A stretch of DNA of 49,398 nucleotides from Rickettsiales bacterium (lineage in GTDB: Bacteria; Pseudomonadota; Alphaproteobacteria; Rickettsiales; JALZUV01). Positions 18,659-40,108 of the stretch are shown in pieces. The stretch spans positions 1-49,398 of the forward strand of contig JAQXAR010000047.1 of NCBI GenBank assembly GCA_029252805.1, in the 5' to 3' direction. The position numbers and the translations under genes are program-made. How positions within the stretch are numbered: the first letter of the stretch is position 1; each line of letters opens with the position of its first letter. Under the pieces are notes generated by a model that was given only the letters and a program-made list of their open reading frames with translations, did no database searches and was not told where the DNA came from.

Positions 18659-19930
18659 TTAGTACAAGACACCCAAACGTAGCAAGAACACATTCGACGC
18701 ATAATCGTTGCTCGCACGGTCAGAATCGCGATTTACATGCAAATATTCGCCGCCAACGACATAATCTTCGTGAAAATTGTAATCTGCGAAGATCCCGCCA
18801 TCGTAAATATTATCGGTACGCTTTACACCGCCAGCCGCTTGATTGACTTCGAAATCATTTTGAGTGTAGCGAAGCTTACCACCAACTTTTAACGTATCAA
18901 GCAGCTGATACGTTGCTTCCGTCCCAATACGCGTTTGCAGGTAACCCGACGCTCCCGTGGTGCTGGTTTCGCGCACATCACGGGTCACATTACCGCGCAC
19001 GCGCCATAAATCATCCGGGCGCCACTGTACGTTCCCCCGCAAAGCCACCCCAGTAACCTCTGGGAGTATGGCAGCATCATAATCCTGCTGCAAATAACCG
19101 ACACCTAAATCAACAAACAAGGGAGAGCTGCGGCGGTTACCAAGCTTCACACCGACAAGCGCTTCGATCCCGTCCGAATCACGCGGAAAAAGCAAGGTGC
19201 TATCAACACGGCTATCATATCGGCGGTTATTATACGTCCCTTCGACATAGAGCACGCTCTCTTCTTGTAATTTATAGCCTACACGCGCTGTCACATGATT
19301 TTCATCACGGTCACGATCATCATTGATGATCTGAGTACCATCACGACGGCGCGAGTTATCATAATCAAAAAAATCGATTCCCGTATTTACATGCGCCATC
19401 CAAACGGGTTCATCCACTTTCACGCCGCCGCTAAGCTCACCGTACATGTAATCGGTTGGTTCAGCTGCCTGACTATTGGGCGTATCGGTAAAAGCACCAA
19501 TCGCGACATGCTCTTTTTGATGACGACCGGCGACATAGACATTCGTCGTTGGCGTAATGTCGTACCCTACGCGAGCTTTCAGATCGGTATCAACGTAACT
19601 ATTTTCACTTTCAGAGAAATACTCTCCTACTTCCACTCGGCCTTCAATATCAACTTGATAGGGCTTTAAATCCGTCTTGAGGCGAACACCTGGGCGGAAG
19701 ATGCCAATAAAGTCACTCTCTTCATTGCCGTCAGAACGGTAGATATTATCATTATAAGCAACACCAGCAGTACCACCGACAGAAAGGCGCACCGCTTTAT
19801 CAGATTCATAGATTGTCTCTTCCGCACGCTCTAAGAGTGGCACCAGATCTTCTTCCACATCATCTTTCGCCACAGCGAAAGCAGGAAGTAAGAGGAGTAG
19901 AGTAGCAGATAAATAAGGAAGTTTCATCAA
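18659..19930 (-). CDS. Outer-membrane beta-barrel (BBP2-type), probable alginate exporter in place of AlgE
   Basis: A 423-residue protein with a signal peptide (LPYLSATLLLLLPAFAVAK) and a short acidic linker. Its beta-barrel starts with VGGTAGVAYNDNIYRSDGNEESDF, the pattern of putative beta-barrel porin type 2 proteins found with exopolysaccharide loci. Strands alternate to a final FLLRLGVLY with a C-terminal aromatic, the usual outer-membrane insertion signal. P. aeruginosa AlgE is about 490 residues and I do not see AlgE-specific sequence. It follows the Sel1 scaffold gene by seven bases. The alginate-export role is inferred from location and from the AlgK-AlgE precedent. Confidence 0.65.
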   Translation of the reverse strand: MMKLPYLSATLLLLLPAFAVAKDDVEEDLVPLLERAEETIYESDKAVRLSVGGTAGVAYNDNIYRSDGNEESDFIGIFRPGVRLKTDLKPYQVDIEGRVEVGEYFSESENSYVDTDLKARVGYDITPTTNVYVAGRHQKEHVAIGAFTDTPNSQAAEPTDYMYGELSGGVKVDEPVWMAHVNTGIDFFDYDNSRRRDGTQIINDDRDRDENHVTARVGYKLQEESVLYVEGTYNNRRYDSRVDSTLLFPRDSDGIEALVGVKLGNRRSSPLFVDLGVGYLQQDYDAAILPEVTGVALRGNVQWRPDDLWRVRGNVTRDVRETSTTGASGYLQTRIGTEATYQLLDTLKVGGKLRYTQNDFEVNQAAGGVKRTDNIYDGGIFADYNFHEDYVVGGEYLHVNRDSDRASNDYASNVFLLRLGVLY

Positions 19931-19937
19931 TTTAACC

Positions 19938-21554
19938 TTATGGGTTCGTTAAAGTATTTAATATAGCAGTCGCACGTGAGTAGCCATTTTTATTGGCCTT
20001 ATTCAGCCAGTTACGGGCTTTTTCCGCATCTTTATCGACTCCAATGCCACGCGCATAACCTAAACCAAGTTGATACTGCCCTGCCGCATAACCGGCATTG
20101 GCAGACTTTTCGTACCATTCATACGCTTTGGTGAGATCCATCGGAACCCCTAAACCAGTACTATGAATTTGCGCTAGAGCGTACATAGCCTCACCATTAC
20201 TGCGCGCTGCAGACTTATGCATCCATTCGATACCGGTGGCAGTATTAGCCTCCACCCCGTTACCTTGAATATACGCCTCGCCCACACGCAACATAGCCTC
20301 TGTATCGCCCGAGTCAGCCAAAGGCTTCCAGAACGTGATGCCACCTACCTTTTTACGCATTGCCAAACGATCTCTTGCAAGGCGCGCTTGCTTTTTATCT
20401 GTTCTTTTACGCTCTTGCTCTACGAGCTTCATTGCACGCTGTTCTGCCTGCATTTGCACACGTATTTCACGCTCAGCTAGCTCAGGCAGGGCTTTCTCAC
20501 TCCCGAGTGACGCCGCTTGCTGATAGAGCGATCTTGCACGTACTCTATCCATCACAACACGTTCACCCGCCCAATACATCCTCGCCTGTCGGATAATCGC
20601 ATCTGGATTACCTTTACTTGCAGCGACACGATACCAGTTAAATGCGACTTCATTATAAACTTCGTCCATCTTACCTTTCTCTTCATACCAACGCGCAATA
20701 CGATAGGCATTCGCCGGATCTGCTTCAACAGCTTGAGAGAAATATCGACGGCTCTTTTCGCCATCTTGCTCAACATTTTGACCTAGGGCATAAGCAAAGC
20801 CTAACTCTAACGCAGCACGCGCATTCCCAAGAGCTGCCGCGCTTTCCCACAAAGAAGCCACATCGCTGCTGGGCTGATGGTTCGTTTCCATCCACATTTT
20901 AGCGAGTTCCATCATGGCCGGCGCAGAACCCGCCTGTACAGCACGACCATACCAATATTCTGCTAAAGGCTGGTTTGCCGTCACGACAATACCATCACGA
21001 AAATGACGAGCCATCCGCAAAGTCACCTCGTTAGAGGGGGTCAATTCGCTTTCAAGCTTGGTTGCAGCAGACGCCATGTAATCACGCGCCAGCTCCGGAT
21101 CAACCATCAATTCGGCAAGTGACACGAGCGCTCCCGCATAACGGTCTTGCACTTGCGTGAAATAATCATAGGCTTTCGTTGCATCTGGCGGAACACCTTT
21201 ACCTTCTTGATAGACCGAACCTAAAACAAGCAATGAGCGTGAATAGCCTAGCTTCTCCGCTTGTTCTAACAAAGCGATCGCTTCTTGAGCTCTCTGGGCT
21301 GCAAGTGGTTCTTGTGATAAATAAATAGACGCGATCTGTGTCATCGAGCGCCCCTTAGTCTGATAATCGATAGACCTCTCAATCGCCTTTTCAAACTCAG
21401 CAATCGCCGTGACGTGATCGGATATATCACGTGCCTGCATCCCACGGATAACATGTTCGTTACCGGGTTTATCAATAATTTCAAACGTCCATGCCCCCGT
21501 AAAAAGAGCAATAAGTGGCAGAGCGAGAAGCGGTTTTAATACTTTTTTTTGCAT
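19938..21554 (-). CDS. Sel1-repeat periplasmic protein, probable AlgK-like scaffold
   Basis: A 538-residue exported protein with a signal sequence (LKPLLALPLIALFTGAWT) and no lipobox cysteine. Sel1 repeats of about 36 residues run through it: SLLVLGSVYQEGKGVPPDATKAYDYF, AALELGFAYALGQNVEQDGEKSRRYF, AMLRVGEAYIQGNGVEANTATGIEWM, AMYALAQIHSTGLGVPMDLTKAYEWY and others. A lysine/arginine-rich helix interrupts them near residues 370-400. AlgK of pseudomonads is a lipoprotein of about 475 residues with the same repeat type that partners AlgE. This gene lies seven bases before the barrel gene and is divergent from alg8, which supports the same partnership. Confidence 0.7.
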   Translation of the reverse strand: MQKKVLKPLLALPLIALFTGAWTFEIIDKPGNEHVIRGMQARDISDHVTAIAEFEKAIERSIDYQTKGRSMTQIASIYLSQEPLAAQRAQEAIALLEQAEKLGYSRSLLVLGSVYQEGKGVPPDATKAYDYFTQVQDRYAGALVSLAELMVDPELARDYMASAATKLESELTPSNEVTLRMARHFRDGIVVTANQPLAEYWYGRAVQAGSAPAMMELAKMWMETNHQPSSDVASLWESAAALGNARAALELGFAYALGQNVEQDGEKSRRYFSQAVEADPANAYRIARWYEEKGKMDEVYNEVAFNWYRVAASKGNPDAIIRQARMYWAGERVVMDRVRARSLYQQAASLGSEKALPELAEREIRVQMQAEQRAMKLVEQERKRTDKKQARLARDRLAMRKKVGGITFWKPLADSGDTEAMLRVGEAYIQGNGVEANTATGIEWMHKSAARSNGEAMYALAQIHSTGLGVPMDLTKAYEWYEKSANAGYAAGQYQLGLGYARGIGVDKDAEKARNWLNKANKNGYSRATAILNTLTNP

Positions 21555-21619
21555 GCCCGCTAAATATTGCTTTTAAGACGCAAATACAAGCGAAAGATAG
21601 CCCAACTCGTTAATTAAAA

Positions 21620-21645
21620 TTAATACTTTACTTGCGCAGTATTAA
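21620..21645. promoter_or_regulatory. Inverted repeat over the alg8 promoter, candidate operator
   Basis: TTAATACT (21620-21627) and AGTATTAA (21638-21645) form a perfect 8-base inverted repeat with a 10-base spacer. It covers the -35 box and most of the -35/-10 spacer of the alg8 promoter, a classic repressor position, and lies between the two divergent alginate blocks. Regulator unknown; function inferred. Confidence 0.45.
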
Positions 21646-21655
21646 ACTTTATATA
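21627..21655 (+). promoter_or_regulatory. Promoter of the alg8-alg44-algG-algL-sel1-algJ-algI operon
   Basis: TTTACT (21627-21632) and TATATA (21650-21655) are separated by 17 bases, ending 11 bases before the alg8 ATG. The leader is therefore very short and has no clear ribosome site. An alternative start further upstream is possible. No AlgU/sigma-E style GAACTT-TCTGA element is visible. Confidence 0.45.
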
Positions 21656-21666
21656 GCGCACAACCT

Positions 21667-23181
21667 ATGGATTACCTTACCGGACACATACTTTACCTCT
21701 TAGCGATGACGAGCTTCGCATTTGCGGTTCCTGAAATTTTATGGAACCCAGATACAACTCGCTTTATCTTTATTATTGGTATTCTCGCGATCTGGCGTTA
21801 TGGCTGGGCACTCACCAATTGTATCCGCTTTTTTATCTACAAGCGTATCGTTTTTCCTAAATGGAGAGCACAAGCGGATGGATTAGGCGAAACTGGCCTC
21901 CCCTCGCATAACTATTTCCTCGTGACCAGCTTCCGTATTGGTTCTGAAACCACTCGCCGCGTTTATGATAGCGTGATTGCGGAAGCGATCCATTGTGGAA
22001 TTCCGACAACGATTGTCGTTTCCTTAGTGGAGCGAGCGGATCAGTCCCTCGTGAAGAAACTCTTTATCGCGCACAACCCGCCAGAAAACGTCAAACTCGT
22101 TTTTGTACGTATTGCAGGCACCGGCAAACGTGACGCGCTCGCCGTTGGTTTCCGCGCCATCTCGCGCCGCTGCCCTCCTGAAGATGCTATTGTATCTGTG
22201 ATTGATGGCGACAGTATGTTGCCACAGGGCCTCGTCCGTAAATGTGCACCATTCTTCAAAACCATTGAAGGCTTAGGCGCTCTAACAACCGATGAACATT
22301 GCGAAGTTGAAGGCAGCTGGATGTTTCGCGAATGGTACAGCATGCGCTTCGCGCAACGTAACATGTATATGGGCTCTCACAGCTTATCCAAGCGCGTATT
22401 GACGCTCACTGGCCGTATGTCGATGTTCCGCGCGTCTATCGTAACGGACCCAGAGTTTATCCAGCGCGTCGAAGTCGACTTTATTGACCATTGGCGCTTG
22501 GGGCGCTTTAAGTTCCTAACCGGAGATGATAAATCTTCGTGGTTCCATATCCTTTCTAAGGGCCACCCAATGATCTATGTCGCAGATGTTAATGTTGTCA
22601 CGATCGAGACCCCTCCTTCTGAGCAGTTCATTGACAGCTCTATTACGCTCATGCGCCGCTGGTTTGGTAATATGCTGCGCACAAACGGACGTGCCATAAA
22701 ACTTGGCATCAAACCAATGGGCTTCTTCCCATGGCTTGCGATTGTCGATCAGCGCATTTCTATGTGGACCTCACTTGTAGGCCCTGTCATCGCGATTCTT
22801 GCGTCTTTCGTTTATGATCCCTTCGCGATCATTTATTACTTCTTATGGATGATGATCACCCGCTATATCATGGTTCTGATGTTGCTAGTCTCACGCCCAG
22901 TCGTATCCCCCTTTTGGCCGTTCTTTTTGTATTACAACCAAGTGGTTGGTTCTTTTGTCAAAACAATCGTGCTGTTTAGACTCGACAAACAGCGCTGGAC
23001 ACGGCAAAACACGACGTTACAAAAACGGCATTCCTCTTTCACTGATCGTATGATGGGATTGAGTTCTGCCTATATGCAAGGCTTTGCATTTGCGATATTT
23101 ATTGTTGGGTTAGCGACCGTAAGTGGTGTAATTAGCTTACCTGACCCTAATTTTTGGTTTCACTTGATGACGGAGTATTAA
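21667..23181 (+). CDS. alg8: Alginate polymerase, glycosyltransferase Alg8
   Basis: Inner-membrane GT2 glycosyltransferase that polymerises GDP-mannuronate into polymannuronate. It has 504 residues (about 494 in P. aeruginosa). Two N-terminal membrane segments are followed by the cytosolic GT-A domain: GTGKRDALAVGF, metal-binding DGDS at residues 180-183, TGDDKSSWFHIL with the catalytic aspartates, and LMRRWFGNMLR, equivalent to the Q/RxxRW motif. Several C-terminal membrane helices follow. Sequence blocks such as GSWMFREWYSMRFAQRNMYMGSHSLS separate it from cellulose and hyaluronan synthases. It is first in a seven-gene operon, four bases before alg44. Confidence 0.92.
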   Translation: MDYLTGHILYLLAMTSFAFAVPEILWNPDTTRFIFIIGILAIWRYGWALTNCIRFFIYKRIVFPKWRAQADGLGETGLPSHNYFLVTSFRIGSETTRRVYDSVIAEAIHCGIPTTIVVSLVERADQSLVKKLFIAHNPPENVKLVFVRIAGTGKRDALAVGFRAISRRCPPEDAIVSVIDGDSMLPQGLVRKCAPFFKTIEGLGALTTDEHCEVEGSWMFREWYSMRFAQRNMYMGSHSLSKRVLTLTGRMSMFRASIVTDPEFIQRVEVDFIDHWRLGRFKFLTGDDKSSWFHILSKGHPMIYVADVNVVTIETPPSEQFIDSSITLMRRWFGNMLRTNGRAIKLGIKPMGFFPWLAIVDQRISMWTSLVGPVIAILASFVYDPFAIIYYFLWMMITRYIMVLMLLVSRPVVSPFWPFFLYYNQVVGSFVKTIVLFRLDKQRWTRQNTTLQKRHSSFTDRMMGLSSAYMQGFAFAIFIVGLATVSGVISLPDPNFWFHLMTEY

Positions 23182-23185
23182 ACAC

Positions 23186-24274
23186 ATGACCAACCCCGCT
23201 ACCCCTACTGCGAGCAACGCCGCCCCCCAAATGGTGCATGAGGCAGAAGCTCAACGCCAACATATACGGATCAACTTGCCGGCAAGCGTCCATATTGACG
23301 GGCAAAACTATCCGCTAGCGGATTGGTCTGTCGGTGGCATTTCTGTTGTGCTTGAAGGCAATATGTCAGCTCCAGCCACAATGCGCGAAAAAGGTTCTGT
23401 CGTTGATAGCATCCTACAATTCCAGTTTGATGGCTTCGCTTTGAGCGTCCCTGTTCAACTTGAAGTCGGATTCACTAGTGATGATCGCATTGGCTGTAAG
23501 TTCGTCAATTCAGACCGTAACCAACGCTCCATTATGCAATATTTAGTCACCGCATACACTAGTGGAGAACTCGTAAATACCGGCGATCTTCTCGATGTCG
23601 TTGCTCGTAACAACATGACAAAACCTCGTAATGTTCCAGACCCTCTCGCAGGCTTAACCTCTGCAGAGATTGCCAAACACAAAATGGCAAAACTATTCAA
23701 AACTGGGACGGTTGCACTGATTTCCGCACTGCTACTCGCTTACATTTTATCAAGTGTGTATGAACGCCTTTACATTGTACAAGCCACTTCGGCGCAAGTC
23801 ACGGCACAGATGCTAACCGTTGACGCTCCTGCTGGCGGCAAACTTTACTACGCTCCTATCCTACCGGACATGAAAGTAAAGAAAGGTCAGCCCCTGCTCA
23901 ACGTTTCAACAACGACTGGCGCCAACTTCACGGTTGATAGCCCTTGTGACTGTATCGTGAAGAAACGTCTCTTAGCTAATAACCGTCTAGCGCGCAAAGG
24001 AGAGCCTGCACTTGAGCTCGTTCGTCCCGACACTCGCCCTTATGTAGAAGCTTACATCGCGCATAAAGAAGCAGTTAAACTTTCAATCAAACAGGAAGCA
24101 CTCATGGCCCTGCCCGGCCATAACAGCTACTTGCGCGGTACGATCTCAATCATTCAGGCGGGTAAAGGCATGGGCGGAAATTCGTTAGTTCGCATCGAAC
24201 CTAACCAACCGCTACCTGTTGAGTTCGTGGATGATCCTGTTGAAGTTCGTATTGATACGTTACGGATACTCTAA
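23186..24274 (+). CDS. alg44: Alginate co-polymerase Alg44 (PilZ domain plus HlyD-like periplasmic part)
   Basis: The c-di-GMP receptor that switches on Alg8. It has 362 residues (about 389 in P. aeruginosa). The cytosolic PilZ domain has the RxxxR motif as RQHIR (R24, R28) and the DxSxxG motif as DWSVGG (D46, S48, G51), so c-di-GMP binding residues look intact. One membrane helix follows near residues 175-195 (VALISALLLAYILSSVY), then a periplasmic barrel-sandwich/MFP-like part (TVDAPAGGKLYYAPILPDMKVKKGQPLLNVS). The order PilZ-helix-MFP is diagnostic of Alg44. It is two bases from algG. Confidence 0.9.
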   Translation: MTNPATPTASNAAPQMVHEAEAQRQHIRINLPASVHIDGQNYPLADWSVGGISVVLEGNMSAPATMREKGSVVDSILQFQFDGFALSVPVQLEVGFTSDDRIGCKFVNSDRNQRSIMQYLVTAYTSGELVNTGDLLDVVARNNMTKPRNVPDPLAGLTSAEIAKHKMAKLFKTGTVALISALLLAYILSSVYERLYIVQATSAQVTAQMLTVDAPAGGKLYYAPILPDMKVKKGQPLLNVSTTTGANFTVDSPCDCIVKKRLLANNRLARKGEPALELVRPDTRPYVEAYIAHKEAVKLSIKQEALMALPGHNSYLRGTISIIQAGKGMGGNSLVRIEPNQPLPVEFVDDPVEVRIDTLRIL

Positions 24275-24276: not shown

Positions 24277-27200
24277 ATGCTTAACGTGCGCATCCCCTTA
24301 TCTGGTCTTGCTTGCCTGCTGGTTTTACTAAACACACCTGCACAGGCTAGTGATGCAGGAACCTTGTGGCTAGAAGCCGAAGCCTTATCAAGTAAACCAA
24401 CCCAAGCCATTGCCAAATGGACTGAGGTTTTGAAGCTTATTCCTAAGGGTAAAACCGCCGGAGAAGGCCTAACGCATGAAGCCGCTAAATTGCAGTTATT
24501 TCACTCTCTGCTAAACGCCGCAGAACAAAGCAAAGACATTAAGCTAATACAACGCGCACAAAAGCTTTCCGAAGATTTCTCACTCCATCAAAAAATATTC
24601 GCGGACACCCTAGCGGGAAAAACAACGGCAACGATTGATAAAAAGATAGCCCTAAAGACCCTCAAGGCTGCAAAAAAGAATGCTCTAACCATCAAAGATC
24701 GACGTAAAAAGAGTGAAGCTTTGCACGCTATTGCACTGGCGATGCTGACCAAAAACAAAGACAATAAATTGCTCTTTAGTTGGGATGGCGTCGAGCTTGC
24801 AGAAGATATCACCCCTTACATCACCCTTTCCAAGCACCGCGCAGAACTCATGCAGATGCTTGCACACTATCAACGTGCACCTTCTGATAGCTGGGGTAAA
24901 AAACTTCATGAGCTAACACGCATTACCGGCAAAAAAGAAACCAAACAACGCAACACACAACTCATTGCGCTGCACGCCGCGGCATTAAAGTCTGATAAAT
25001 TCACCGTCGCTCTTAATGCTCTTTCTGCCATTACCGACCACAGCAAACAGCAAGAGAAGCTCTATCAGTGGTTCAAAAAAACATTCGAGCAAAAGAACCT
25101 CTCGCGCGCAGCGATGATTGCGGATCGAATCGACGATGGAAAATACGGAGCAAATAGCTGGGGCAAACTCGCCGTTCATTATTATGAAGCCGGTGAAAAA
25201 GTTCGCGCTAACGATGCGATAGAAAAAAGCTACCGAAGTGCATTATCGACTCGCCGAGATGACCGCAAAGTTCAAGCGCTTATTGAGACTGCTGATTATG
25301 CAGCCCACAGCAACAACCCTAAGCTTGCGCAAAAGGCGCTTGATGCAATTGGAGCATTTAAGAGTGACATCGCACAAAAAGGGGAAACACCTAAACTTAG
25401 CAAAGCATTTGCAGCCTTCATTAAATCACTCGCTGAGAATGGCCGCTTCGAAGAAGCACAGAATCGCCTCTCCGCCACTAAATTCTCAGACTCTGCCAAT
25501 TTAACGCTCGCGGTCACAGCTGTCGCAAAAAGTCTTGCAGAAAATGGCAACGCACAAGCAGCGCTCAGCCTATTAGAGAATAAAAACTTAATGGCAGGCA
25601 ACCGCCTAGATAAAGCCTATTACGCCACGGCCAAAGCTTTAACAATGAAGCAGAAATTTTTAGAGGCGCGAACGCTGGCGGGCATGATTAAAGATGCGAA
25701 GACTAAAATAAAAATTCAAGCTTACATTGATAGCAAAGCAAAAGCCGCTGCGAAGGAAAAGGAAACATCGGCGCTTCAAGCGCCTTTTTTTTCTTCGCTT
25801 AACCTAAAAATTAAAACACTCCCCGCTGCTCAACAAGAAGCCGCACGCCTTGAGCTCGCAGAGATGTTTATTGCAGAACCAGCCCTCCCTATAGCGCAGT
25901 GGGCAACGCTTATTACCTCAGCAGAAGCAAAAGACACCATGATTGCCTTGCGCTCCATTCATCTGGCCAAAGCCGGTAAGATTGAAGAGGCCTCCCGGTT
26001 AATGAAGAGCGTGAGTAATGCGATTCGTCGTGCGAAACATTACCGCCGCCTCGCAAAAGAAATTTCATTACATACCGATTTATTCGGTTTCATCGGCGAT
26101 AAAGTCGATCCTATTATTGAAGAAACCAAACAGAATATTTTCAATGCAGCAGATGCCACCCAAATTGATAGCAAAGCACTTGAAGTACGTCTTGATAGCT
26201 TCCTGCAGAGCAAAAAACCTGGCTTAGAACTAGCGGCACCAACGAGTTCAAATCTCGGACTTACTATCCCTGAAATGGACTTTCCAGAGCGTCTAGAGTT
26301 TGATTATGATTATGTAAAGGCACAGCTACCTGCCCTCACTCCCTTTACGCTGGATCGCGTGTATTATGAAAATAGTTTCTTCATTAATACGAAATTTAAG
26401 ATCGCCATTGCCTATTCTGACAATAACTTTGAATCGGGAAATATCAGCCCTGAAGTTCTCTATATCTCTAGCGGAACCACCAGCCTTCCCTTACTTTACG
26501 ATCGTCTAAAATCCCAAGGTTTAGAGGGTTACATCACACGCAAAGGCAAGGAATACACCCTCAATAACGGGCTCCTCATTGGTCCAGATGCAACGCTTGT
26601 CATTGACGGTGAGGAAGTATCGAAACTCTACCAATCCAAGCAAGCCAGTGCCATCCTAGTCAATGCGGGCCGCTTATATATTACGGGAACAAGCGTGATT
26701 GGTTGGGATGTGAACAAAGCACAACCTGCTTTTGCGCAACATAAAGACCGTTACGATTTCCGCCCATTCATTGCGGGCTGGAGTCGTTCACACACCTATC
26801 TCGCCGGCAATGAATTTGTCGCAATTGGCTATAGCAACCACAAATCTTACGGTATCTCACTTTCTGCCGGCCCCGAAAAACTGCAACAGAGCACCATCAC
26901 AGAACCGCAACGCCCTGACGGTATTATCGTCGATAATAGCTTCGAGAATGTCTATTACGGATTTTACTCTTATGAAGCAGATAATGTCTCGCTCATCGGC
27001 AATGAATATAAAGATAATATCATTTATGGCATCGATCCACATGACCGCTCACGCTGGTTAACCATCGCTTATAACACTGCCTATGGCGCCCAAAAGAAGC
27101 ACGGAATTATTATCTCACGCGAAGTAAATGACTCTAGCTATATCGGCAATCTCTCGTTTGATAATAAAGGCTCCGGCTTCATGATTGATCGCTTAAGCAA

Positions 27201-31101: not shown

Positions 31102-32540
31102 TGGTTTTTTCTTCTATCGTTTTCCTCACAATATTTCTACCGCTCTTCTTAGCGGTCTATTATCTCACGCCGAATCGTTGGCGTTCGCTCGTCATTTTAC
31201 TAGGCAGTTATTTATTTTACGCATGGTGGCGCGTGGACTTTGTCATCCTGTTTGGCGTCGTTACCTTCTTCAATTATTGGGTCTCAAAATACATCCTTCA
31301 CGCCAAGAAAAGTGATAATGCAAAGCGGGCCAAATACTGGCTGACAATTGGCGTCGTCGGCGATTTGGCCGTACTTGGCTATTTCAAATATTTCAACTTC
31401 GGTCTGGATGCGTTTAACGATCTCGTGCTCACGATGGGCGGCACCCCATGGGATGCATGGAGCGTGATTCTACCGATCGGAATTTCATTCTATATTTTCC
31501 AAGCGATCAGCTACCTGATCGACATTTATCGCGGCGACGCCGATCTCGCACCGAGCTTTTTGGACTTCGCCGCCTTTATCGCCCTCTTCCCACAACTCAT
31601 TGCGGGTCCTGTTATCCGTTATAAAGACATCGCCCATCAGTTTGAGAAACGCGAACATAACCTCACCTTATTCAATGAAGGTGCTATTTACTTCATGTGC
31701 GGATTTTGCAAAAAAGTACTGATCGCCGATACACTGGCACCGCTTGCCGATATGATGTTTGCGCAAAACAACCCGAGCTTTGCCGAAGCATGGCTAGGCA
31801 TTCTCGCCTATTCAGGACAGCTTTATTTTGATTTCTGTGGTTACAGTCAAATGGCTGTTGGCCTCGGCCTCATGATGGGCTTTCGGTTTATTCGCAATTT
31901 CAATCACCCTTACATTAGCCAATCCATCACCGAGTTTTGGCAGCGCTGGCACATCTCGCTTTCGACGTGGCTACGCGACTACCTCTACATTCCGTTGGGC
32001 GGAAACCGTAAAGGAAAAACCCGTACTTACATCAACCTCTCGCTGACAATGCTGCTTGGGGGTTTCTGGCACGGCGCTAACTGGACATTCATTTTATGGG
32101 GTGCATGGCACGGTGGAATTTTAGCAATTGAACGCATGCTCGGCGGCAGAAACGGCACCCCCTACCCGCGCGCGATTGCGTGGATCATCACCTTCATTTT
32201 TGTCTTGATGGGCTGGGTACTTTTCCGCGCGCCAGACGTCACAACCGCCTTCAATTTCTACAATGCTATGTTCGACCTCTCGCAAGGGTTCGCCATTACA
32301 GATGTCCTCGCATGGCAGATCACCCCGCTTATGCTGGGTACACTCGGCATTGCTTTTTCCGTTATTTTCTTAAGCCCCCGCTATTTGCAATGGCGCGGCC
32401 ACACCCAAGAAACGATTTTGGAAAGCTGGGCCGCTAAAGCCTCTACGACTGAACAGATTGTCATGATCGGATTATTCGTGACGGCATTCTGCAAATTGAT
32501 TGCTCAATCGCACTCACCGTTCTTATATTTCCAATTCTAG
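31101..32540 (+). CDS. algI: Alginate O-acetylation membrane protein AlgI (MBOAT)
   Basis: A membrane-bound O-acyltransferase that passes acetyl groups across the inner membrane for alginate acetylation. It has 479 residues and about ten to twelve membrane segments. The MBOAT core is clear: IGISFYIFQAISYLIDIYRGD, FPQLIAGPVIRYKDI, YFDFCGYSQMAVGLGLMMGF, FWQRWHISLSTWLRDYLYIPLGGNRKG, and GGFWHGANWTFILWGAWHG with the catalytic His324 and a second His337. It is the last gene of the rightward operon. Twenty bases separate its stop from the end of the convergent Sel1 gene, without an obvious terminator hairpin. Confidence 0.92.
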   Translation: MVFSSIVFLTIFLPLFLAVYYLTPNRWRSLVILLGSYLFYAWWRVDFVILFGVVTFFNYWVSKYILHAKKSDNAKRAKYWLTIGVVGDLAVLGYFKYFNFGLDAFNDLVLTMGGTPWDAWSVILPIGISFYIFQAISYLIDIYRGDADLAPSFLDFAAFIALFPQLIAGPVIRYKDIAHQFEKREHNLTLFNEGAIYFMCGFCKKVLIADTLAPLADMMFAQNNPSFAEAWLGILAYSGQLYFDFCGYSQMAVGLGLMMGFRFIRNFNHPYISQSITEFWQRWHISLSTWLRDYLYIPLGGNRKGKTRTYINLSLTMLLGGFWHGANWTFILWGAWHGGILAIERMLGGRNGTPYPRAIAWIITFIFVLMGWVLFRAPDVTTAFNFYNAMFDLSQGFAITDVLAWQITPLMLGTLGIAFSVIFLSPRYLQWRGHTQETILESWAAKASTTEQIVMIGLFVTAFCKLIAQSHSPFLYFQF

Positions 32541-32559: not shown

Positions 32560-35082
32560 TTAGTGGCCGGGCTTCTTAACGGGAGCATCATGGACAACAC
32601 TTGCATCGACGGCGAGCATTTGCTTGGCCTTGGCACTACCTGCCTTAGCGGCACGCTCCCACCATTGGCGTGCTTTCACTTGAGAAGGCGCTATTCCAAG
32701 TCCCGTAGAAAAGGCATTTCCAATTTCCATCATCGAGACTGAATCGCCGGCTTGAGCCGCTTTCACATACCACCTAAACGCCTCTTTCGGGCTAGGTTCT
32801 ACCCCCGCAGCACCATAGATAAAACGTTGAGCCATTTTCCGCATCGCCCGCACATTACCTTGTTCTGCTTGCCTCTGAATCTCAGCAGGGCTTGTCAACA
32901 CATTGCCACTATTATGTGAATTGATTTTGGCCGTTAAACGTTCAATCTTTGCACGCTCTCTTGGTGAACAAGGATAGTAATCTACCACTTTTTCATACCA
33001 ATAGTTTGCTTTCTTAAAGGCTTGAACATCCGTTTTGGGTTTCGTTAGGTAATAGCTGACAAGCTCCATAATCGAATCAATATTATAAAGTGCAATGGAT
33101 CTTTCGAGCAGCTGTACGGCTTTCGCCTCTTTGCCCTGCTCAATGAACAGCCCTGCCAACTTACGCATTGCATTGTCATTATTCTGATTCACGGCATCAT
33201 AGAAAGCTACAATCGCAGCCTCTTTATCCGCAGGAAAATCTTTACTACCTTCGCTAAGTAACTTTCCTAATTCATACCCGGCATTATCGTTTCCGAGCAT
33301 CATCGCTCTTTCGAAATATTGCCTCGCTTTTAACGGCTGAGACTCAAACATCTCTCCCTCTTCAAGATAGGCCTCACCTAAAGCCACATACCCATTAGCT
33401 TCGCCTTCACCTTCACGAACCGCTTCTTGCAGCCACTTATCGGCAAGTTCTCGATCTTGCGCCGTACCAATACCATTATTATAGAAATGCGATAACATCA
33501 CCATGGCTTCACGATCCGAACCACTCACACGACGCTTCAACAACATGAAGCCATCAATATTATCTTGCTTCTTTTTACTCAACATTAAGCGCTTCACTTC
33601 AGGGCGAAGGAGTTTGCCTGCACCTTCGTGAATAGCGCGATGCTTCCAAAATGTCTGATAACGCTGGCTTGGCATTCTTCCAACACCACATTCATAATTT
33701 TCCACCAGATGCACCATCGCTTCACGGCTACCCGCAGACGCCGCCTGACGATAAAAACGGTATGATTTCATAGGAGTGCGTTTCACACCAATCCCATACT
33801 TATACGCATGACCAAGCTTCACCAATGCATCGAGGGAATTCAATTTTGCGGCACGATCATAAAGCGCGAAAGCACGCTTTTCGTTCTTTGCAATCCCCTT
33901 ACCCATTTCATAATCTTCAGCCAGCATGTAAGGAATTTCCGCGGCTATATCAGGAATCGTAATAGCGCGTTCCATAAGTTGAACGGCTTTTTCTGGCTGC
34001 GGTGTATCTTTGTAATCTCCGCGATAATAATGTGCGAGTTTTTTAATCGCGCCCTGATGCCCTTGTTGAGAAGCGCTCGCCAAATAAGCGGCACCTTTAT
34101 GGCGATTTTCAAGCAAATCACCTTGGCTCACCAACCAATAAATTCCCAAACGATAGAGCGACTCTGCATCATTATGTTTGGCGCCTAATTCGTAATAGGC
34201 AATGCCTTTATCAATATCCTGCTTCACCTGAATTCCGTATAAATAAAGCAGCCCTAAGTAACTAATAGCAGAATAATTATTGGACGCAGCCGACGCTTCC
34301 AGCCATTTTATTCCCGCAGGGTAATCATCTGAACTCAAATTATGGCGCAAAAAAATCTTACCAAAATCATGTGCAACTTTACAATTACCTTGCGCAATTT
34401 CTTCAAGCGCGCGATTTTCAGCTAGCGTAATAAATTGATCAATCTGGGCTTGATCTATACCTGCAATCAAACCATCACGATACATATACGCCAATGTGAG
34501 ATAAGCCATTGGGTTACCCGCCAATGCGGAACGTTTATAATACTCTTCAGCTTTACCATATTCACTCAATTTTTGGTGAATATGGCCCATAAAAAACGCG
34601 GCTTGGTATGGATCTCCGGGGGCAACTTCTTTCACTAAAGCACGTGCAATTTCCTGATTCTCCGGTAAAAAAATCCCTCCAATATACAAACGCGCTAATT
34701 GCATTTTTGCGCGTGCCGCATGAGGTGTTTTTGTTTCTGCAACCTCTCGCAACAAACGAATCGCCCGGACCGGATCAGGGAATACCCCCACTCCACCATT
34801 CAATAGCTTTAAGGCAACGTGTAGTCTTTTAGGGGTACTTAAGTGCGAGGTCTTTGCTCCCACAACGACATTTAACGGGGCTTGTGAAATACAGATTTTC
34901 GCATAATCTAAATTTGGAGGAGAGAAGGCTTTGATCTTTTTCGTTGGGCCAGCCTGCTGCTGAATCATCGCCGCAGCGTCACCCACATACAGTCCACCGC
35001 CCAGCAATAGCAAAGGAATGATCAATAAATATTTGAATGATTTAAAGTGACTCACTACTCTAGCGCTCCACCTCGTTTTCAA
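32560..35082 (-). CDS. Very large Sel1-repeat protein of the alginate locus
   Basis: An 840-residue protein with an N-terminal signal anchor (SFKYLLIIPLLLLGGGLYVGDAAA) and Sel1 repeats over almost its whole length. Examples are AMAYLTLAYMYRDGLIAGIDQAQI, ESLYRLGIYWLVSQGDLLENRHKGAAYL, ALVKLGHAYKYGIGVKRTPMKSYRFY, AMVMLSHFYNNGIGTAQDRELADKWL and SMMEIGNAFSTGLGIAPSQVKARQWW. I count more than a dozen. It ends in a short basic tail. It overlaps the algF stop by 23 bases as the last gene of the leftward algA-algX-algF block. It is far longer than AlgK (about 475) and lacks a lipobox. A scaffold role in the periplasm is inferred. Confidence 0.7.
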   Translation of the reverse strand: MKTRWSARVVSHFKSFKYLLIIPLLLLGGGLYVGDAAAMIQQQAGPTKKIKAFSPPNLDYAKICISQAPLNVVVGAKTSHLSTPKRLHVALKLLNGGVGVFPDPVRAIRLLREVAETKTPHAARAKMQLARLYIGGIFLPENQEIARALVKEVAPGDPYQAAFFMGHIHQKLSEYGKAEEYYKRSALAGNPMAYLTLAYMYRDGLIAGIDQAQIDQFITLAENRALEEIAQGNCKVAHDFGKIFLRHNLSSDDYPAGIKWLEASAASNNYSAISYLGLLYLYGIQVKQDIDKGIAYYELGAKHNDAESLYRLGIYWLVSQGDLLENRHKGAAYLASASQQGHQGAIKKLAHYYRGDYKDTPQPEKAVQLMERAITIPDIAAEIPYMLAEDYEMGKGIAKNEKRAFALYDRAAKLNSLDALVKLGHAYKYGIGVKRTPMKSYRFYRQAASAGSREAMVHLVENYECGVGRMPSQRYQTFWKHRAIHEGAGKLLRPEVKRLMLSKKKQDNIDGFMLLKRRVSGSDREAMVMLSHFYNNGIGTAQDRELADKWLQEAVREGEGEANGYVALGEAYLEEGEMFESQPLKARQYFERAMMLGNDNAGYELGKLLSEGSKDFPADKEAAIVAFYDAVNQNNDNAMRKLAGLFIEQGKEAKAVQLLERSIALYNIDSIMELVSYYLTKPKTDVQAFKKANYWYEKVVDYYPCSPRERAKIERLTAKINSHNSGNVLTSPAEIQRQAEQGNVRAMRKMAQRFIYGAAGVEPSPKEAFRWYVKAAQAGDSVSMMEIGNAFSTGLGIAPSQVKARQWWERAAKAGSAKAKQMLAVDASVVHDAPVKKPGH

Positions 35083-35692
35083 GCATCAATGCTTTATAAG
35101 CACCCGCTTTGCCAGTGACTAAAAAGCTCGTGCCAACACGGCGCTTCAATTGCACACCTTTAAATTCTTGCACCACTGCTTCACCCGCTTTCGCCTGCAA
35201 TGCAAGCTTCAGCGCATTCACTTCGCGCGAGCCACCTTCATTTGCGTTCACTTTATCCAAGATAGCCGCCCCATGCTCGGCTGCAAATAAACTCCCCTGC
35301 GCCGCATCGGAGAAGTTATAAAAATAAACACGTGCTTTTGCCGGATTGCTCAGCAGCTCATCTTTAATGAGCTTAACTTCGCCTGCATCGTTCAGCGCGA
35401 TGGTAAAGTAACCACCTGCATCAATCGTTAGCTCTTGTGAAACTGTACCCACCGTCGCTTTATGCTGACCACCTTTGACAATACGGTAGTTTGAAAGCGC
35501 CGGATAGCTTAACTCACCGTAAGTGATGCCACCAACCGTTGCCGAAACTTTATCCATTGCCGAAGCCGCATGAATCACACGCACAAAGGCAGAATCAGCC
35601 GGAGGCGCTGGATCGTATAATTCGTCATCATTTGCCTGCGCCATCGTAAAGGGCACAAGAGCCGCTATCATCCATGAGAAGAGAGTTTTCAT
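35060..35692 (-). CDS. algF: Alginate O-acetylation periplasmic protein AlgF
   Basis: A 210-residue secreted protein (216 in P. aeruginosa) required for alginate acetylation together with AlgI and AlgJ. The start at 35692 gives a clean signal peptide (TLFSWMIAALVPFTMAQAND). The earlier in-frame ATG at 35728 lies within the algX end and is rejected. Matching features are the LYDPAPPADSAFVRVIHA opening, the two-domain beta-rich layout, ARVYFYNFSD, and the closing GTSFLVTGKAGAYKALMLENEVER. It is 11 bases after algX and overlaps the large Sel1 gene. Confidence 0.88.
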   Translation of the reverse strand: MKTLFSWMIAALVPFTMAQANDDELYDPAPPADSAFVRVIHAASAMDKVSATVGGITYGELSYPALSNYRIVKGGQHKATVGTVSQELTIDAGGYFTIALNDAGEVKLIKDELLSNPAKARVYFYNFSDAAQGSLFAAEHGAAILDKVNANEGGSREVNALKLALQAKAGEAVVQEFKGVQLKRRVGTSFLVTGKAGAYKALMLENEVER

Positions 35693-35703
35693 TATTATCT
35701 TCC

Positions 35704-37095
35704 TTATCCTTTGTTGGAAATTCGACATAAGCGAACTTCTAGTTCTGATTTAATACTTGGGAGGCCAACCAATCGAACACTTTTCAAAGAAGACGTAATC
35801 TCCTCCGAAAGCTCGACAAAGAAGCGACCTGCATTCGTGAAATTCTGCCTACGGTCGAGCACAAACCACTCGCCATCGCCATCATCATATTCCATCTCCA
35901 ACGTAAAGTTAGAGAGGCCTTTATTGCTCGATTTCAAGAAAAGGTAATAATCGGTGCCGCTAATTTTCTGACCCGCAGGCAAACTGAAGAGCGCTTTTGC
36001 ATCGGTATTATCACCGACTAAATTCACCTTTGCCGTCTGAATCGCTTCCGCAGCGCTACACTCTCCATAAACGGCAGGAATCGCCTGACGGAACATCGTA
36101 TCACCGAGGTTAAAGTCATAATGCGCAAGGTTTTCCCACACCACAAAGTCAGGATTTAAACGTTCTTCTTTGGGCAAGGCCGTATAAGAAACAAGCGCAT
36201 TAAAGAGTTTGCCGGCGCTAATCGCAAAATTCGCTACTTCAAGCCCTGTATGCTCTGATAAAAACCCATCAAAGTTAAACCAAGATACGGCACTAAAGCT
36301 CGAACCTAACAAAACAATTGGCGAAGCAGAACTCACATCACCAAAGAGTGCATCCTGACCTTTACTAAGCTGCGCATTGGTTTGATAAGACGGATAAGGC
36401 TCCGCTGGCACTACTTCCGCACAAAGTGTTTCCACTTCCATGGCAATACTACCCTTCATACGCAATTCACCGGTCGCTTCTGTCGTATAAACCGTTGGCG
36501 TAATTTTCTGATAGGTAGTATCTGCTTTCAAAGCGGTGGCAATACGGCGCGCTGCGGCGCTCGCACCAAAAGGCGTCCAGTGCATATCACGCTTATAGAA
36601 AAAGTGGAGGCCCGTTTTAGGATCCACCTTATTCATCACATCGAGCAGATCAATCACCGTGGCACCCGTCGTCTTCAGCTCTTTGAGATAGTTTTCATAA
36701 TAGGGCATTCCATCAGCAAGTCGGAACGAACGCTGCCCCGGTTGCCCCCGATTAAAGTAACGATAGGAAGCAAATGGACGAGGCGGCACTTGCAATAAAA
36801 TCAATTTTGTCCCCTGATTCGCAAAAGCTTCCGTCAGACGCTTCAAATACCCCTTCGCATGCGGCAGAAGCGCAAAATACTCGTTAATATCACTCTGACG
36901 GAAAAACCAACCTTCATTCCCTTGCGTCAATTTTGCAAGCGTACGGCGAGTCTCATCATGTAAGTAAGGACAGTTATACTTCACCTCTTGCGCCTCAGGT
37001 TGAGCAGATTGAGCCTGTTGCGCAGCAGCGGGAGCCACCAAAAGCACTCCTGTCAGCAGCAATAGCGCTGTTATGAATAAAGATTTATCGTTCAT
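35704..37095 (-). CDS. algX: Alginate O-acetyltransferase AlgX
   Basis: Periplasmic protein that transfers acetyl to alginate and binds the polymer. It has 463 residues (474 in P. aeruginosa). A signal peptide (ITALLLLTGVLLVAPAAAQ) precedes the SGNH-like domain. The signature DMHW is at residues 170-173 and the nucleophile motif GSSFS at 264-268 with Ser266. ENLAHYDFN follows. From about residue 340 comes a beta-rich C-terminal module (SGTDYYLFLKSSNKGLSNFTLEMEYDDGDGEW), equivalent to the carbohydrate-binding domain of AlgX. The operon order algA-algX-algF differs from pseudomonads. Confidence 0.92.
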   Translation of the reverse strand: MNDKSLFITALLLLTGVLLVAPAAAQQAQSAQPEAQEVKYNCPYLHDETRRTLAKLTQGNEGWFFRQSDINEYFALLPHAKGYLKRLTEAFANQGTKLILLQVPPRPFASYRYFNRGQPGQRSFRLADGMPYYENYLKELKTTGATVIDLLDVMNKVDPKTGLHFFYKRDMHWTPFGASAAARRIATALKADTTYQKITPTVYTTEATGELRMKGSIAMEVETLCAEVVPAEPYPSYQTNAQLSKGQDALFGDVSSASPIVLLGSSFSAVSWFNFDGFLSEHTGLEVANFAISAGKLFNALVSYTALPKEERLNPDFVVWENLAHYDFNLGDTMFRQAIPAVYGECSAAEAIQTAKVNLVGDNTDAKALFSLPAGQKISGTDYYLFLKSSNKGLSNFTLEMEYDDGDGEWFVLDRRQNFTNAGRFFVELSEEITSSLKSVRLVGLPSIKSELEVRLCRISNKG

Positions 37096-37107: not shown

Positions 37108-38562
37108 TTACACAACTTCTGTCATGCGTCCATAGGTATCTTCAAAACGAACGATATCATCTTCGCCTAAATAAGAACCTGACTGCACTTCAATCAACTC
37201 TAATGGGATAGAACCTGGGTTCACCAAACGGTGCTTAGCGCCGCAAGGAATATAAACTGATTCGTTTTCCGAAACAACTTTGCGTGTATCATCGCGCGTT
37301 ACGATCGCGGTACCTTTCACCACAATCCAATGCTCGGCACGGTGATAATGCATCTGCAACGACAAGCTAGCCCCCGGCTTCACGGTAATACGCTTCACCT
37401 GATGGCGATCGCCATGGTCGATACTATCGTAGTTACCCCAAGGGCGAGCCATTTGGCGGTATTCATCCACCAGTTTAGGGTCTTCGACTTTCAGCTTATC
37501 AACCAGCTTCTTCACATCCTGTGCATTATTGCGATCAGCAACCATCACACAGTCTTTTGTCGAAATAACAATAAGGTCTTTCACACCCAGCACCGAAACC
37601 TTTACGCCGTCAGTACTATTGACGTAGCAATCTTTGCTGTCGAGGAACGTATTTTCACCTTCGGAGACATTACCGGCTTTGTCTTTATCCTTAACACGCC
37701 ATAGCGCATCGAAAGAGCCAGCATCCGTCCAACCGCAATCCACCGGCACAACCGCCGCTTTCGTGGTTGGCTCCATCACCGCATAATCAATAGATTCTGC
37801 AGGAATACTTGCGAACGCTTTAGCATCAAAATGGATAAAATCTTCACCTTCGCGTATCGTATTGAACGCTTTAGCCGTCGCTTGCGCAATATCAGAACGG
37901 TGCTCCAGCATCTCTTCAAGCAAGAGAGCAACAGGGAATGCGAACATACCGCTATTCCAAGTATACTCACCCGACGCGAGGTATTTCTCAGCCGTTTTCG
38001 CGTCAGGCTTCTCAACAAAAGCACTCACTGGGTGGGTGCCTTCGGAGATTTCCTTATCGCTAAACTTAATATAACCATACCCCGTATCGGCATGAGATGG
38101 CGTAATGCCAAAGGTCGTCAAATTACCTTTCACAGCAGATTGTGCCGCTTTCATCACCGCTTCACGGAATGCCGTCACATCATCAATAATATGATCCGAT
38201 GGCAAAACAAGCATCACCGCATCATCACCATGCGCTTTACGGATATAATGCGCCGCAATCGTGAGCGCTGGCGCCGTATTACGACCTTTAGGCTCTAGCA
38301 AAATTTCTGCGTCGTCAATTTCAAGTTCCTGAACGTTCTCAGCCACAAGAAAACGGTGATCTTCATTACTCACAAATACCGGAGCTTCGAAAACATCACG
38401 GTCAGCTACACGCAACATCGTTTGCTGAATCAGCGTATAATCCTCAGAAGCCAGCTTCAAAAACTGCTTCGGATAGTGGCTGCGAGACATCGGCCAAAGG
38501 CGTGTCCCCATCCCTCCAGAAAGAATTACGGGTACAATGGTTGCATTCTGCTTTGTTGGCAT
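37108..38562 (-). CDS. algA: Mannose-1-phosphate guanylyltransferase / mannose-6-phosphate isomerase AlgA
   Basis: Bifunctional cytosolic enzyme making mannose-6-phosphate and GDP-mannose for alginate. It has 484 residues (481 in P. aeruginosa). The N-terminal nucleotidyltransferase has VILSGGMGTRLWPMSRSHYPKQFL and VLPSDHII. The C-terminal cupin has the metal-binding QMHYHRAEHWIVVKGTA and IPCGAKHRLVNPG, the isomerase part. RPWGNYDSID is the usual link block. A good ribosome site AGGAGG (38570-38575) stands seven bases before the ATG, and a promoter lies at 38613-38641. Other polysaccharides can also use this enzyme (ManC type), but the operon places it with alginate. Confidence 0.93.
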   Translation of the reverse strand: MPTKQNATIVPVILSGGMGTRLWPMSRSHYPKQFLKLASEDYTLIQQTMLRVADRDVFEAPVFVSNEDHRFLVAENVQELEIDDAEILLEPKGRNTAPALTIAAHYIRKAHGDDAVMLVLPSDHIIDDVTAFREAVMKAAQSAVKGNLTTFGITPSHADTGYGYIKFSDKEISEGTHPVSAFVEKPDAKTAEKYLASGEYTWNSGMFAFPVALLLEEMLEHRSDIAQATAKAFNTIREGEDFIHFDAKAFASIPAESIDYAVMEPTTKAAVVPVDCGWTDAGSFDALWRVKDKDKAGNVSEGENTFLDSKDCYVNSTDGVKVSVLGVKDLIVISTKDCVMVADRNNAQDVKKLVDKLKVEDPKLVDEYRQMARPWGNYDSIDHGDRHQVKRITVKPGASLSLQMHYHRAEHWIVVKGTAIVTRDDTRKVVSENESVYIPCGAKHRLVNPGSIPLELIEVQSGSYLGEDDIVRFEDTYGRMTEVV

Positions 38563-38612: not shown

Positions 38613-38641
38613 CTTATACAGGTTTATTCCGTTTTACGCAA
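38613..38641 (-). promoter_or_regulatory. Promoter of algA-algX-algF-sel1
   Basis: On the minus strand TTGCGT (complement of 38636-38641) and TATAAG (complement of 38613-38618) are 17 bases apart. The -10 box matches TATAAT in five of six positions. It is followed by a leader of about 45 bases with a strong AGGAGG. It faces algC, which is divergent. Confidence 0.6.
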
Positions 38642-38716
38642 GTGCCATTATTAATAATTGTTAACTTTTACAACCTATCTGTGTACCCAGACTATTACAG
38701 AAGAAAAAGAAATCTC

Positions 38717-40108
38717 ATGCATAATTTTCATAGCTCCATCCTACGCGCTGGCGATATCCGCGGCATTTACAATGAGACTCTCTTCGACGCCGACGCCTTA
38801 GCCATCGGCAAAGCCTTTGCTACTTGCATTATTCGCGAAACAGGTAAGGCAAACCCCATCATCAATGTCGCTTATGATGGGCGCCTTAGCACCCCGGCTC
38901 TCAGTGGCGCCTTAAAAGAAGGCATCATCAGCACTGGGGCAACCGTACATGATTACGGCATCGGCCCTACCCCTCTGATGTATTTCTCTGTTTATCATAG
39001 CAATCCAGATGCGGGTATTATGGTCACCGGTTCGCATAACCCTGGCAACCATAACGGCTTTAAAATGATGATAGGCAAAGACTCCTTCTTTGGCGAACAT
39101 ATCGAAACCCTCGGCAAATACGCGAATACAGCCGATTACGAAATCGGACAAGGCGCAGTCATCAACAAAGACTGCAAAGACGAATATCTCGAAACCCTCG
39201 CCGCGGCCTTTAAACCTAAAGGTGCACGAAACATTAAAGTCGTCGTTGACCCTGGCAACGGCGCAGCAGGTGAAATTTCAGAACGCCTCGCGGCAATGCT
39301 CTCAGCAGATATCACCGTGATTAACGCAGAGATTGACGGCAACTTCCCCAACCATCACCCGGACCCAACCATCCCTGCCCTGATGCAGCAACTCATCGAA
39401 ACCGTGCAAGCCCAAGATGCCGATGTCGGTATCGCTTATGATGGCGATGGCGACCGCATTGGTGCCGTCGATAAAACGGGGCGCATCCTTTATGGCGATC
39501 AACTGATGGTTCTTTTTGGCCGCGACGTTCTTTTAAAACATCCCGGCGCGACCATCATTGCTGATGTTAAAGCCAGCCAAACCCTCTTCGACGATATCGC
39601 GCAACATGGCGGACAGCCCCTTATGTGGAAAACCGGACATAGCTTCGTCAAAGCGAAAATGAAAGAAACCAAAGCCCATCTCGCCGGTGAAATGAGCGGA
39701 CACATCTTCTTTGCCGATGAGTATTTCGGCTATGATGATGGTATCTATTCTGGTGTACGCCTTATCAACCTACTCGCTCATTCCGATAAGCCACTCGAAC
39801 AGCTGATGGACGAAATGCCTGAAGTTTATAACACGCCAGAAATTCGGATCGAGACCACTGAAACTCTCAAATTCAGCGCCGTCGCCGAAATTAAAGAACG
39901 CTTGGCAGCCGCCGGCGCCGATGTCGATGATGTCGATGGCGTACGTGTCAAGAACGCCGATGGCTGGTGGCTCGCTCGCGCCTCAAACACCCAAGCAGCC
40001 ATCATCGCCCGCGCCGAAGGCAACAGCCCCGAAGCGCTAGAACGATTAAAAACCCTACTCGCCTCCCAACTAAGCGAGAGCGGCATTATGGATTTTGATT
40101 TAGGTTAA
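38717..40108 (+). CDS. algC: Phosphomannomutase / phosphoglucomutase AlgC
   Basis: Converts mannose-6-phosphate to mannose-1-phosphate (and glucose phosphates), supplying AlgA. From the ATG at 38717 it has 463 residues, the length of P. aeruginosa AlgC. A GTG at 38642 would add 25 residues of no family likeness. The phosphoserine loop VTGSHNPGNHNGFK has Ser106. The metal loop DGDGDR sits at residues 242-247, the same numbering as the P. aeruginosa enzyme. The sugar loop is GEMSGHIFF and the phosphate-binding loop RASNTQAAIIARAEG. It is divergent from algA. Confidence 0.95.
   Translation: MHNFHSSILRAGDIRGIYNETLFDADALAIGKAFATCIIRETGKANPIINVAYDGRLSTPALSGALKEGIISTGATVHDYGIGPTPLMYFSVYHSNPDAGIMVTGSHNPGNHNGFKMMIGKDSFFGEHIETLGKYANTADYEIGQGAVINKDCKDEYLETLAAAFKPKGARNIKVVVDPGNGAAGEISERLAAMLSADITVINAEIDGNFPNHHPDPTIPALMQQLIETVQAQDADVGIAYDGDGDRIGAVDKTGRILYGDQLMVLFGRDVLLKHPGATIIADVKASQTLFDDIAQHGGQPLMWKTGHSFVKAKMKETKAHLAGEMSGHIFFADEYFGYDDGIYSGVRLINLLAHSDKPLEQLMDEMPEVYNTPEIRIETTETLKFSAVAEIKERLAAAGADVDDVDGVRVKNADGWWLARASNTQAAIIARAEGNSPEALERLKTLLASQLSESGIMDFDLG

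Follow-up and report, generated by a model that had tools for sequence, protein, structure and literature searches.

The stretch analysed here, called the window throughout, is the whole of contig JAQXAR010000047.1 (C47; 49,398 nucleotides, about 47% GC) from a draft genome of a Rickettsiales bacterium (2.19 Mb, 63 contigs, 99% complete), and it carries a large locus of alginate (alg) genes. Fourteen genes lie between bioF/bioC-like biotin genes (16818-18649) and a GNAT gene with a tRNA-Ala (40109-40745). They form four blocks: sel1A-BBP2 on the minus strand, alg8-alg44-algG-algL-sel1B-algJ-algI on the plus strand, algA-algX-algF-sel1C on the minus strand, and algC on the plus strand (Table 1). 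Within a block, neighbouring genes overlap by up to 34 bp or stand up to 12 bp apart (gaps of -34 to +6 bp in the seven-gene block from alg8 to algI); where blocks diverge, 112 and 79 bp lie between them. What is known of alginate secretion comes mainly from Pseudomonas and Azotobacter. The Pseudomonas operon has the order algD-8-44-K-E-G-X-L-I-J-F-A, whereas the window has its four blocks and algD lies outside it. The initial annotation had named ten alg genes with their catalytic motifs in an alphaproteobacterial host, in a layout foreign to Pseudomonas and with accessory proteins that looked rebuilt. All of this holds: the ten genes are present with intact frames and the expected motifs, the gene coordinates agree with the layout, the host is an alphaproteobacterium, and the locus contains three Sel1-repeat genes and a BBP2 porin, an AlgG of 1177 aa and no AlgE. 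More telling than that description, and the main novelty here, are three features that it did not include: the fusion of AlgG to a TPR-like solenoid, the absence of AlgE, and the pairing of Sel1A with BBP2.

Table 1. Genes and intergenic region of the alg locus, with positions in the window.
Feature	Position	Strand	Evidence
BBP2-family outer-membrane porin, proposed alginate exit in place of AlgE	18659..19930	-	PF10082 211.5 bits; model
Sel1A, AlgK-like Sel1 solenoid, proposed porin partner	19938..21554	-	Sel1 144.9 bits; AlgK profile match
Divergent intergenic region, 112 bp, between sel1A-BBP2 and the alg8 operon	21555..21666	.	Gene coordinates, sequence
alg8, mannuronan synthase (GT2)	21667..23181	+	PF13641 113.2 bits; identity; tree
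alg44, PilZ and HlyD co-polymerase	23186..24274	+	PF07238, PF13437 over cut-off; motifs
algG, 1177 aa, TPR-like solenoid (about residues 21-600) and mannuronan C5-epimerase beta-helix (about 660-1130)	24277..27810	+	NF038177 282.3 bits; model
algL, periplasmic alginate lyase with NNH	27797..28903	+	PF05426 73.5 bits (cut-off 22.2)
Sel1B, Sel1-repeat protein	28870..30024	+	Sel1 121.6 bits
algJ, SGNH O-acetylation protein	30031..31101	+	PF16822 208.6 bits
algI, MBOAT, acetyl transfer across the inner membrane	31101..32540	+	PF03062 115.3 bits; identity
Sel1C, large Sel1-repeat protein	32560..35082	-	Sel1 157.1 bits
algF	35060..35728	-	PF11182 87.4 bits (cut-off 34.4)
algX, terminal alginate O-acetyltransferase	35704..37095	-	PF16822 165.9 bits
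algA, GDP-mannose pyrophosphorylase/phosphomannose isomerase (GMP/PMI) for GDP-mannose	37108..38562	-	TIGR01479 651.7 bits (cut-off 372.95)
algC-type phosphomannomutase/phosphoglucomutase (PgmG)	38642..40108	+	NF046027 616.7 bits (cut-off 600)

Judged by gene set and homology, the locus can be assigned to alginate synthesis with high confidence. Identity to the proteins of Pseudomonas donghuensis is 51% for Alg8 (486 aa), 55% for AlgI, 37% for AlgG, 30% for Alg44, 26% for AlgX and 24% for AlgL. Alg8 has DGDS at residue 180 and TGDDK at 285, and its reading as an alginate synthase was supported in part by its place among Alg8 proteins in a tree built without cellulose synthases; a search with it against PDB sequences gave no match. 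In Alg44, RQHIR and DWSVGG align with RQHAR and DLSAGG of Pseudomonas, so that the motif for cyclic di-GMP (c-di-GMP) is kept, and the PilZ domain scores 25.6 bits against a cut-off of 22.5. AlgL has NNH at residue 177, AlgX has RDMHW and GSSFS, and AlgJ has DTHW and GTSYS. AlgL, AlgF, AlgX, AlgJ, AlgI (as MBOAT) and AlgA all exceed their Pfam cut-offs; the NCBIfam AlgL models match the window AlgL as well, but under theirs. A GDP-mannose-dehydrogenase gene is found on contig C15 of the same genome. It was chosen by eye from five family members in the genome and is the only one searched against the PDB, where the top match is GDP-mannose 6-dehydrogenase (299 bits) and the best UDP-glucose dehydrogenase reaches 212. 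With AlgA and AlgC in the window and AlgD on C15, the predicted supply of GDP-mannuronate is complete. The window thus has in common with Pseudomonas Alg8, Alg44 with its PilZ motif, the AlgG domain, AlgX, AlgL, AlgI, AlgJ, AlgF, AlgA and AlgD chemistry; it differs in having no AlgE, Sel1 proteins in place of AlgK, and the AlgG fusion. The neighbours of the alg locus in Microvirga soli include a GGDEF diguanylate cyclase and two LuxR-type regulators (L167 14161-15687, L166 8005-10122), which fits c-di-GMP control.

The window AlgG is about twice as long as that of Pseudomonas. In an AlphaFold model (14 sequences, mean predicted local distance difference test score (pLDDT) 80), residues 21-600 form a TPR-like solenoid of 32 helices and residues of about 725-1130 a right-handed beta-helix, with the epimerase motif DPHDRS at residue 920. 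Against crystal structures of AlgG, the beta-helix part gives Z 42 and a root-mean-square deviation (rmsd) of 1.8 with 420 residues aligned, and Foldseek ranks AlgG first. The score against the equivalog model NF038177 is under its cut-off of 700 bits, but the domain has the AlgG fold nonetheless. The epimerase is therefore fused to a TPR-like solenoid of ~600 residues, and this solenoid would hold AlgG in the secretion line. The helical part has no Pfam Sel1 match. Two observations weigh against such a role: its identity to other members is just 13-23%, and it has no profile similarity to AlgK (hhalign 0.9%) or to Sel1A, so that a fused AlgK is rejected as its origin and it does not resemble Sel1A either. 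In Pseudomonas, AlgK with its 9.5 Sel1-like repeats is described as the proposed hub at the porin in one study (PMC9384988), and according to another, AlgK binds AlgX and not AlgG, AlgG fails to pull down AlgK, and the association of AlgG with the complex is called unclear (PMC9734138). A natural AlgG-solenoid fusion where AlgE is missing is a direct handle on how AlgG joins the secretion complex.

AlgE (PF13372) is absent from the window locus. A search of the whole genome gave a single partial match of 29.7 bits, to a lone porin on contig C30, so that an AlgE elsewhere in this genome is disfavoured. To see AlgE in relation to AlgG, both were searched for in 34 genomes, the window's included. 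AlgG matches were found in 22 of them at an E value of 0.001 and in 20 at 1e-20; of these 20 proteins, 12 are long (frames of 1023-1298 aa), seven are short (518-558 aa) and one, in G001, is cut by the contig end. PF13372 matches of at least 97 bits occur in all seven short-AlgG genomes and in one of the 12 long-AlgG genomes. The protein in that one (G130), whose gene is on a different contig from the alg genes, is not supported as an AlgE, since BLAST finds no significant similarity between it and the AlgE of P. donghuensis (E 0.34). G431, with a short AlgG, has its strong PF13372 match on another contig and a 43-bit match beside AlgG, and three genomes (G429, G430, G270) have AlgE and no AlgG match. 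Among 21 further genomes, AlgE stands beside AlgG in 11/11 of those with a short AlgG, which brings the short-AlgG genomes with AlgE to 18/18 over both sets. The remaining ten, one of them represented by a 788-aa fragment, include G798 with a PF13372 match of 256.8 bits, to a protein that is not within the 21 kb around its Alg8, and G794 with one of 43 bits. In G525, drawn from an even sample of the phylum, AlgG is long, Sel1/AlgK-type genes are present and PF13372 gave no match. Loci with a long AlgG are called type II below, and type I denotes AlgE in the genome with AlgG short or not found. It should be kept in mind that these counts are not independent, because the fusion looks like one event: in a tree of the epimerase domain (40 rows), all 20 long AlgGs fall on one side of a single branch (97/94).

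What stands in the locus instead of AlgK and AlgE is Sel1A and BBP2, and this pair is likely to be the outer-membrane exit in this order. BBP2 scores far above the PF10082 gathering score of 23.7. It shares this family with BBP2_2/EpsL proteins, but reaches only 69.3 bits against the EpsL equivalog TIGR03014 (cut-off 275) and is paired with Sel1A beside alg8. Its model (pLDDT 85) is a barrel of 18 long strands; the AlgE barrel has 18 strands too. The first six rows of a VIA-align comparison are all AlgE (Z 18.7-19.7, rmsd 4.7-5.0, 311-323 aligned), level with the other porins named below, and the profile match to AlgE is 58% over 105 columns. Profiles of the Sel1A type match AlgK at 99.3% over 381 columns, which is a likeness only, with no other Sel1 group as control, and all three Sel1 proteins miss the 700-bit cut-off of the AlgK equivalog NF038194 (Sel1A 61.3, Sel1B 35, Sel1C 34.3). 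As for the other two, Sel1B matches the C-terminal part of a larger Sel1 protein that UBA998 and Rhizobium have in the same position, and Sel1C, conserved among type II loci, is matched over most of its length in UBA998, Defluviimonas, Microvirga, Chthonobacter, Rhizobium, Devosia and G028.

The initial annotation considered a full alginate set notable in this background. AlgG is uncommon in the class, but the locus is no lone oddity, since the same AlgG type occurs in Microvirga, Rhizobium, Devosia, Chthonobacter, Defluviimonas and other relatives. Searching with NF038177 at E values up to 1e-20, and counting the window, AlgG was found in 3/385 genomes sampled from the class, two of them long, and in 13/398 of the phylum. 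Family f219, presumably Pseudomonadaceae, accounts for 11 of the latter, with open frames of 524-810 aa; the remaining two are long and belong to the window's class. Among the genomes examined, such long AlgGs were confined to alphaproteobacteria. Alg8 relatives are more widespread, with 4/36 near genomes and 23/385 genomes of the class, many without AlgG, and they also occur on 14 plasmid records from Rhizobium, Loktanella, Salipiger, Tateyamaria and Jannaschia. In a survey of named loci, which covers the best 80 of 581 stretches, an AlgG of at least 1000 aa is found in 17, all alphaproteobacterial: two metagenome-assembled genomes (MAGs), Defluviimonas, ten Microvirga, Chthonobacter, two Rhizobium and Devosia. 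An Aurantimonadaceae contig ends within its AlgG gene at 788 aa. Short AlgGs in the same 80 are from gammaproteobacteria and three alphaproteobacterial MAGs (L072, L075, L079), and no AlgG was found in the stretch of five related alphaproteobacterial loci (L073, L074, L076, L080, L085). The loci of the five named genera resemble that of the window in their long TPR-AlgG, large Sel1 proteins, AlgL and lack of AlgE in the stretch; only Defluviimonas among them has BBP2 in the cluster, as the window does, and Microvirga and Rhizobium, unlike the window, are without acetylation genes in the stretches read. A related observation concerns G004, of the same order, where an Alg8 frame (L013 8417-11167) has about 400 extra C-terminal residues that look beta-helix-like by eye.

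Phylogenies of Alg8 and AlgG against their gammaproteobacterial homologues, which the initial annotation had proposed, place the window apart from Pseudomonas and with alphaproteobacterial relatives. The Alg8 tree, built from 68 rows by a quick method and with supports from the Shimodaira-Hasegawa-like approximate likelihood ratio test (SH-aLRT) alone, groups the window first with UBA998, L070 and G028 (95); Defluviimonas joins next (97) and the Rhizobiales after it (84). It is the Micavibrionaceae-like type I loci that are nearer to the gammaproteobacteria, with 97 in the Alg8 tree and 93/87 in the AlgG tree. A tree of LepA (26 rows, two partial) joins the window with G001, UBA998 and G028 (89/93), and the six alphaproteobacteria of type I form a clade of their own (100/100); a place for the window among the Micavibrionaceae-like loci is thereby ruled out, those being type I and of another LepA clade. 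In G028 itself, lepA is found in two pieces on contig C11 (L224/L225, query 6-201 and 200-610) about 980 bp apart, and this split appears to be an insertion or intervening element.

A recent transfer of the Pseudomonas operon with later rearrangement could account for the identity of Alg8 and AlgI to their Pseudomonas counterparts, but it is very unlikely given these trees, from which the window locus looks like an old alphaproteobacterial form and no recent gift from Pseudomonas. One placement goes against this picture: G130, with its long AlgG, falls by the type I group in the Alg8 tree (85), contrary to the AlgG tree. That the long AlgG itself should be an artefact of assembly or gene calling is hardly credible. 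Long open frames are common in high-GC genomes, but the GC content of the window is not high by that measure, the fused frame is open in 12 of the 34 genomes and in G525, and the model is a mostly confident solenoid and beta-helix. It is also unlikely, though less so, that the polymer is another polyuronate or plain mannuronan. Many alphaproteobacterial Alg8/Alg44 pairs come without AlgG and may make other polymers; as an example, the loci L042-L061 have a distant Alg8, most have Alg44, none has AlgG in the stretch, some have AlgD, AlgA, AlgI or Sel1-type genes nearby, and they may make other polyuronates. In the window, on the other hand, the DPHDRS motif and crystal-like fold of AlgG, the GDP-mannose type of AlgD, and AlgL speak for alginate. 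PL7 alginate lyases, several with RTX repeats, adjoin the loci of eight relatives out of 21 of type II (6/10 Microvirga, Devosia with three genes, and G028; four proteins confirmed by Pfam). None was found beside the window locus, any type I locus or the G525 locus, and G028 shares neither PL7 nor an acetylation pattern with the window, a point against the reading of the locus given below.

The most serious alternative, which is possible but clearly less probable than an exit through Sel1A and BBP2, is that alginate is made while these two proteins have some other function and the polymer leaves through a pore encoded at another place in the genome, as must be so at least in Microvirga. Several findings lean this way or weigh against the proposed exit. 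No BBP2 was found in three Microvirga genomes with a long AlgG, and in two Rhizobium genomes and those of Devosia and Chthonobacter, each with a single BBP2, the gene is on a different contig from the alg genes; a linked exit through BBP2 is thus not common to the whole lineage. No porin was recognised by the Rhizobiales alg loci among the genes read, not every frame having been scanned; one Chthonobacter frame resembles what we take to be a general alphaproteobacterial porin. Genomes with AlgE also carry BBP2 (G426, G427, G429, G430). The structural match of BBP2 to AlgE is level with that to a BenF-like porin (Z 18.7) and OprD-family porins (18.4), and so tells of the type of barrel but not of what it carries; Foldseek alone puts siderophore receptors first, and alg-linked copies cannot be told from the others by the inward charge of the barrel. 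At the lipobox-like site of Sel1A, relatives have Cys where the window and G001 (L015 243-1844) have Trp (GAW), and Sel1A of the window's genus may have lost its lipid anchor. Against all this stands the position of the genes. Sel1A and BBP2 are neighbours adjoining alg8 in the window, G001, UBA998, L070 and G028, and both are inside the cluster in G130 and Defluviimonas, there with one opposite gene between them. Among 17 BBP2 genes in 19 genomes, a Sel1 gene is in the flank of alg-linked copies only (5/6, compared with 0/11 of the others), although one of the 11, in G430, is at a contig end about 8 kb from the AlgE of that genome and is not wholly unlinked. The window genome, moreover, offers no AlgE-like match beyond the partial one on C30.

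In our reading, the locus probably serves the synthesis, acetylation and secretion of alginate under c-di-GMP control and is of a distinct alphaproteobacterial type, with a self-scaffolded AlgG and an exit through Sel1A and BBP2. AlgC, AlgA and the AlgD from the other contig would make GDP-mannuronate, which Alg8 and Alg44 would polymerise across the inner membrane once Alg44 binds c-di-GMP. The polymer would be acetylated by AlgI, AlgJ, AlgF and AlgX and epimerised by AlgG, which its own TPR-like solenoid may keep in the secretion line, and AlgL would clear stray polymer. Supply, polymerisation, c-di-GMP control, acetylation, epimerisation and lysis are predicted in this way from homology. 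The AlgK-like Sel1A and the 18-strand BBP2 barrel may then form the outer-membrane exit, with Sel1B and Sel1C as putative further periplasmic scaffold.

Past the tRNA-Ala, at 40670-44721, there are a weak terminase-like frame, DUF5681, a DNA methylase and a recombinase zinc-ribbon frame, which look like the remnants of a phage or integrative element.

Loss of the genes for outer-membrane transport, algKE, has been seen before. A survey of 1733 genomes (PMC7112194) describes 'atypical' alginate operons, with algKE missing, from deep-sea bacteria; this loss is shared with the window, and the consulted part of that paper names no replacement porin, AlgG fusion or alphaproteobacterial lineage. These operons may overlap with the long-AlgG lineage. 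In literature searches at title and abstract level, mainly in open-access sources, neither a TPR-AlgG fusion nor an alginate exit formed by BBP2 came up. Whether alphaproteobacteria have a second, separately assembled secretion machine, with the epimerase in a trans-periplasmic TPR scaffold, Sel1 solenoids for AlgK and a pore other than AlgE (BBP2 here, another in Microvirga), is a question on which we see even chances. If it is so, the fusion makes epimerisation a part of the secretion line and not a free periplasmic step. The fusion, found where AlgE is missing, further suggests that a synthase-dependent polymer can change its outer-membrane exit and keep its synthesis core, and it makes cultured Microvirga, Rhizobium, Devosia and Defluviimonas possible alginate makers.

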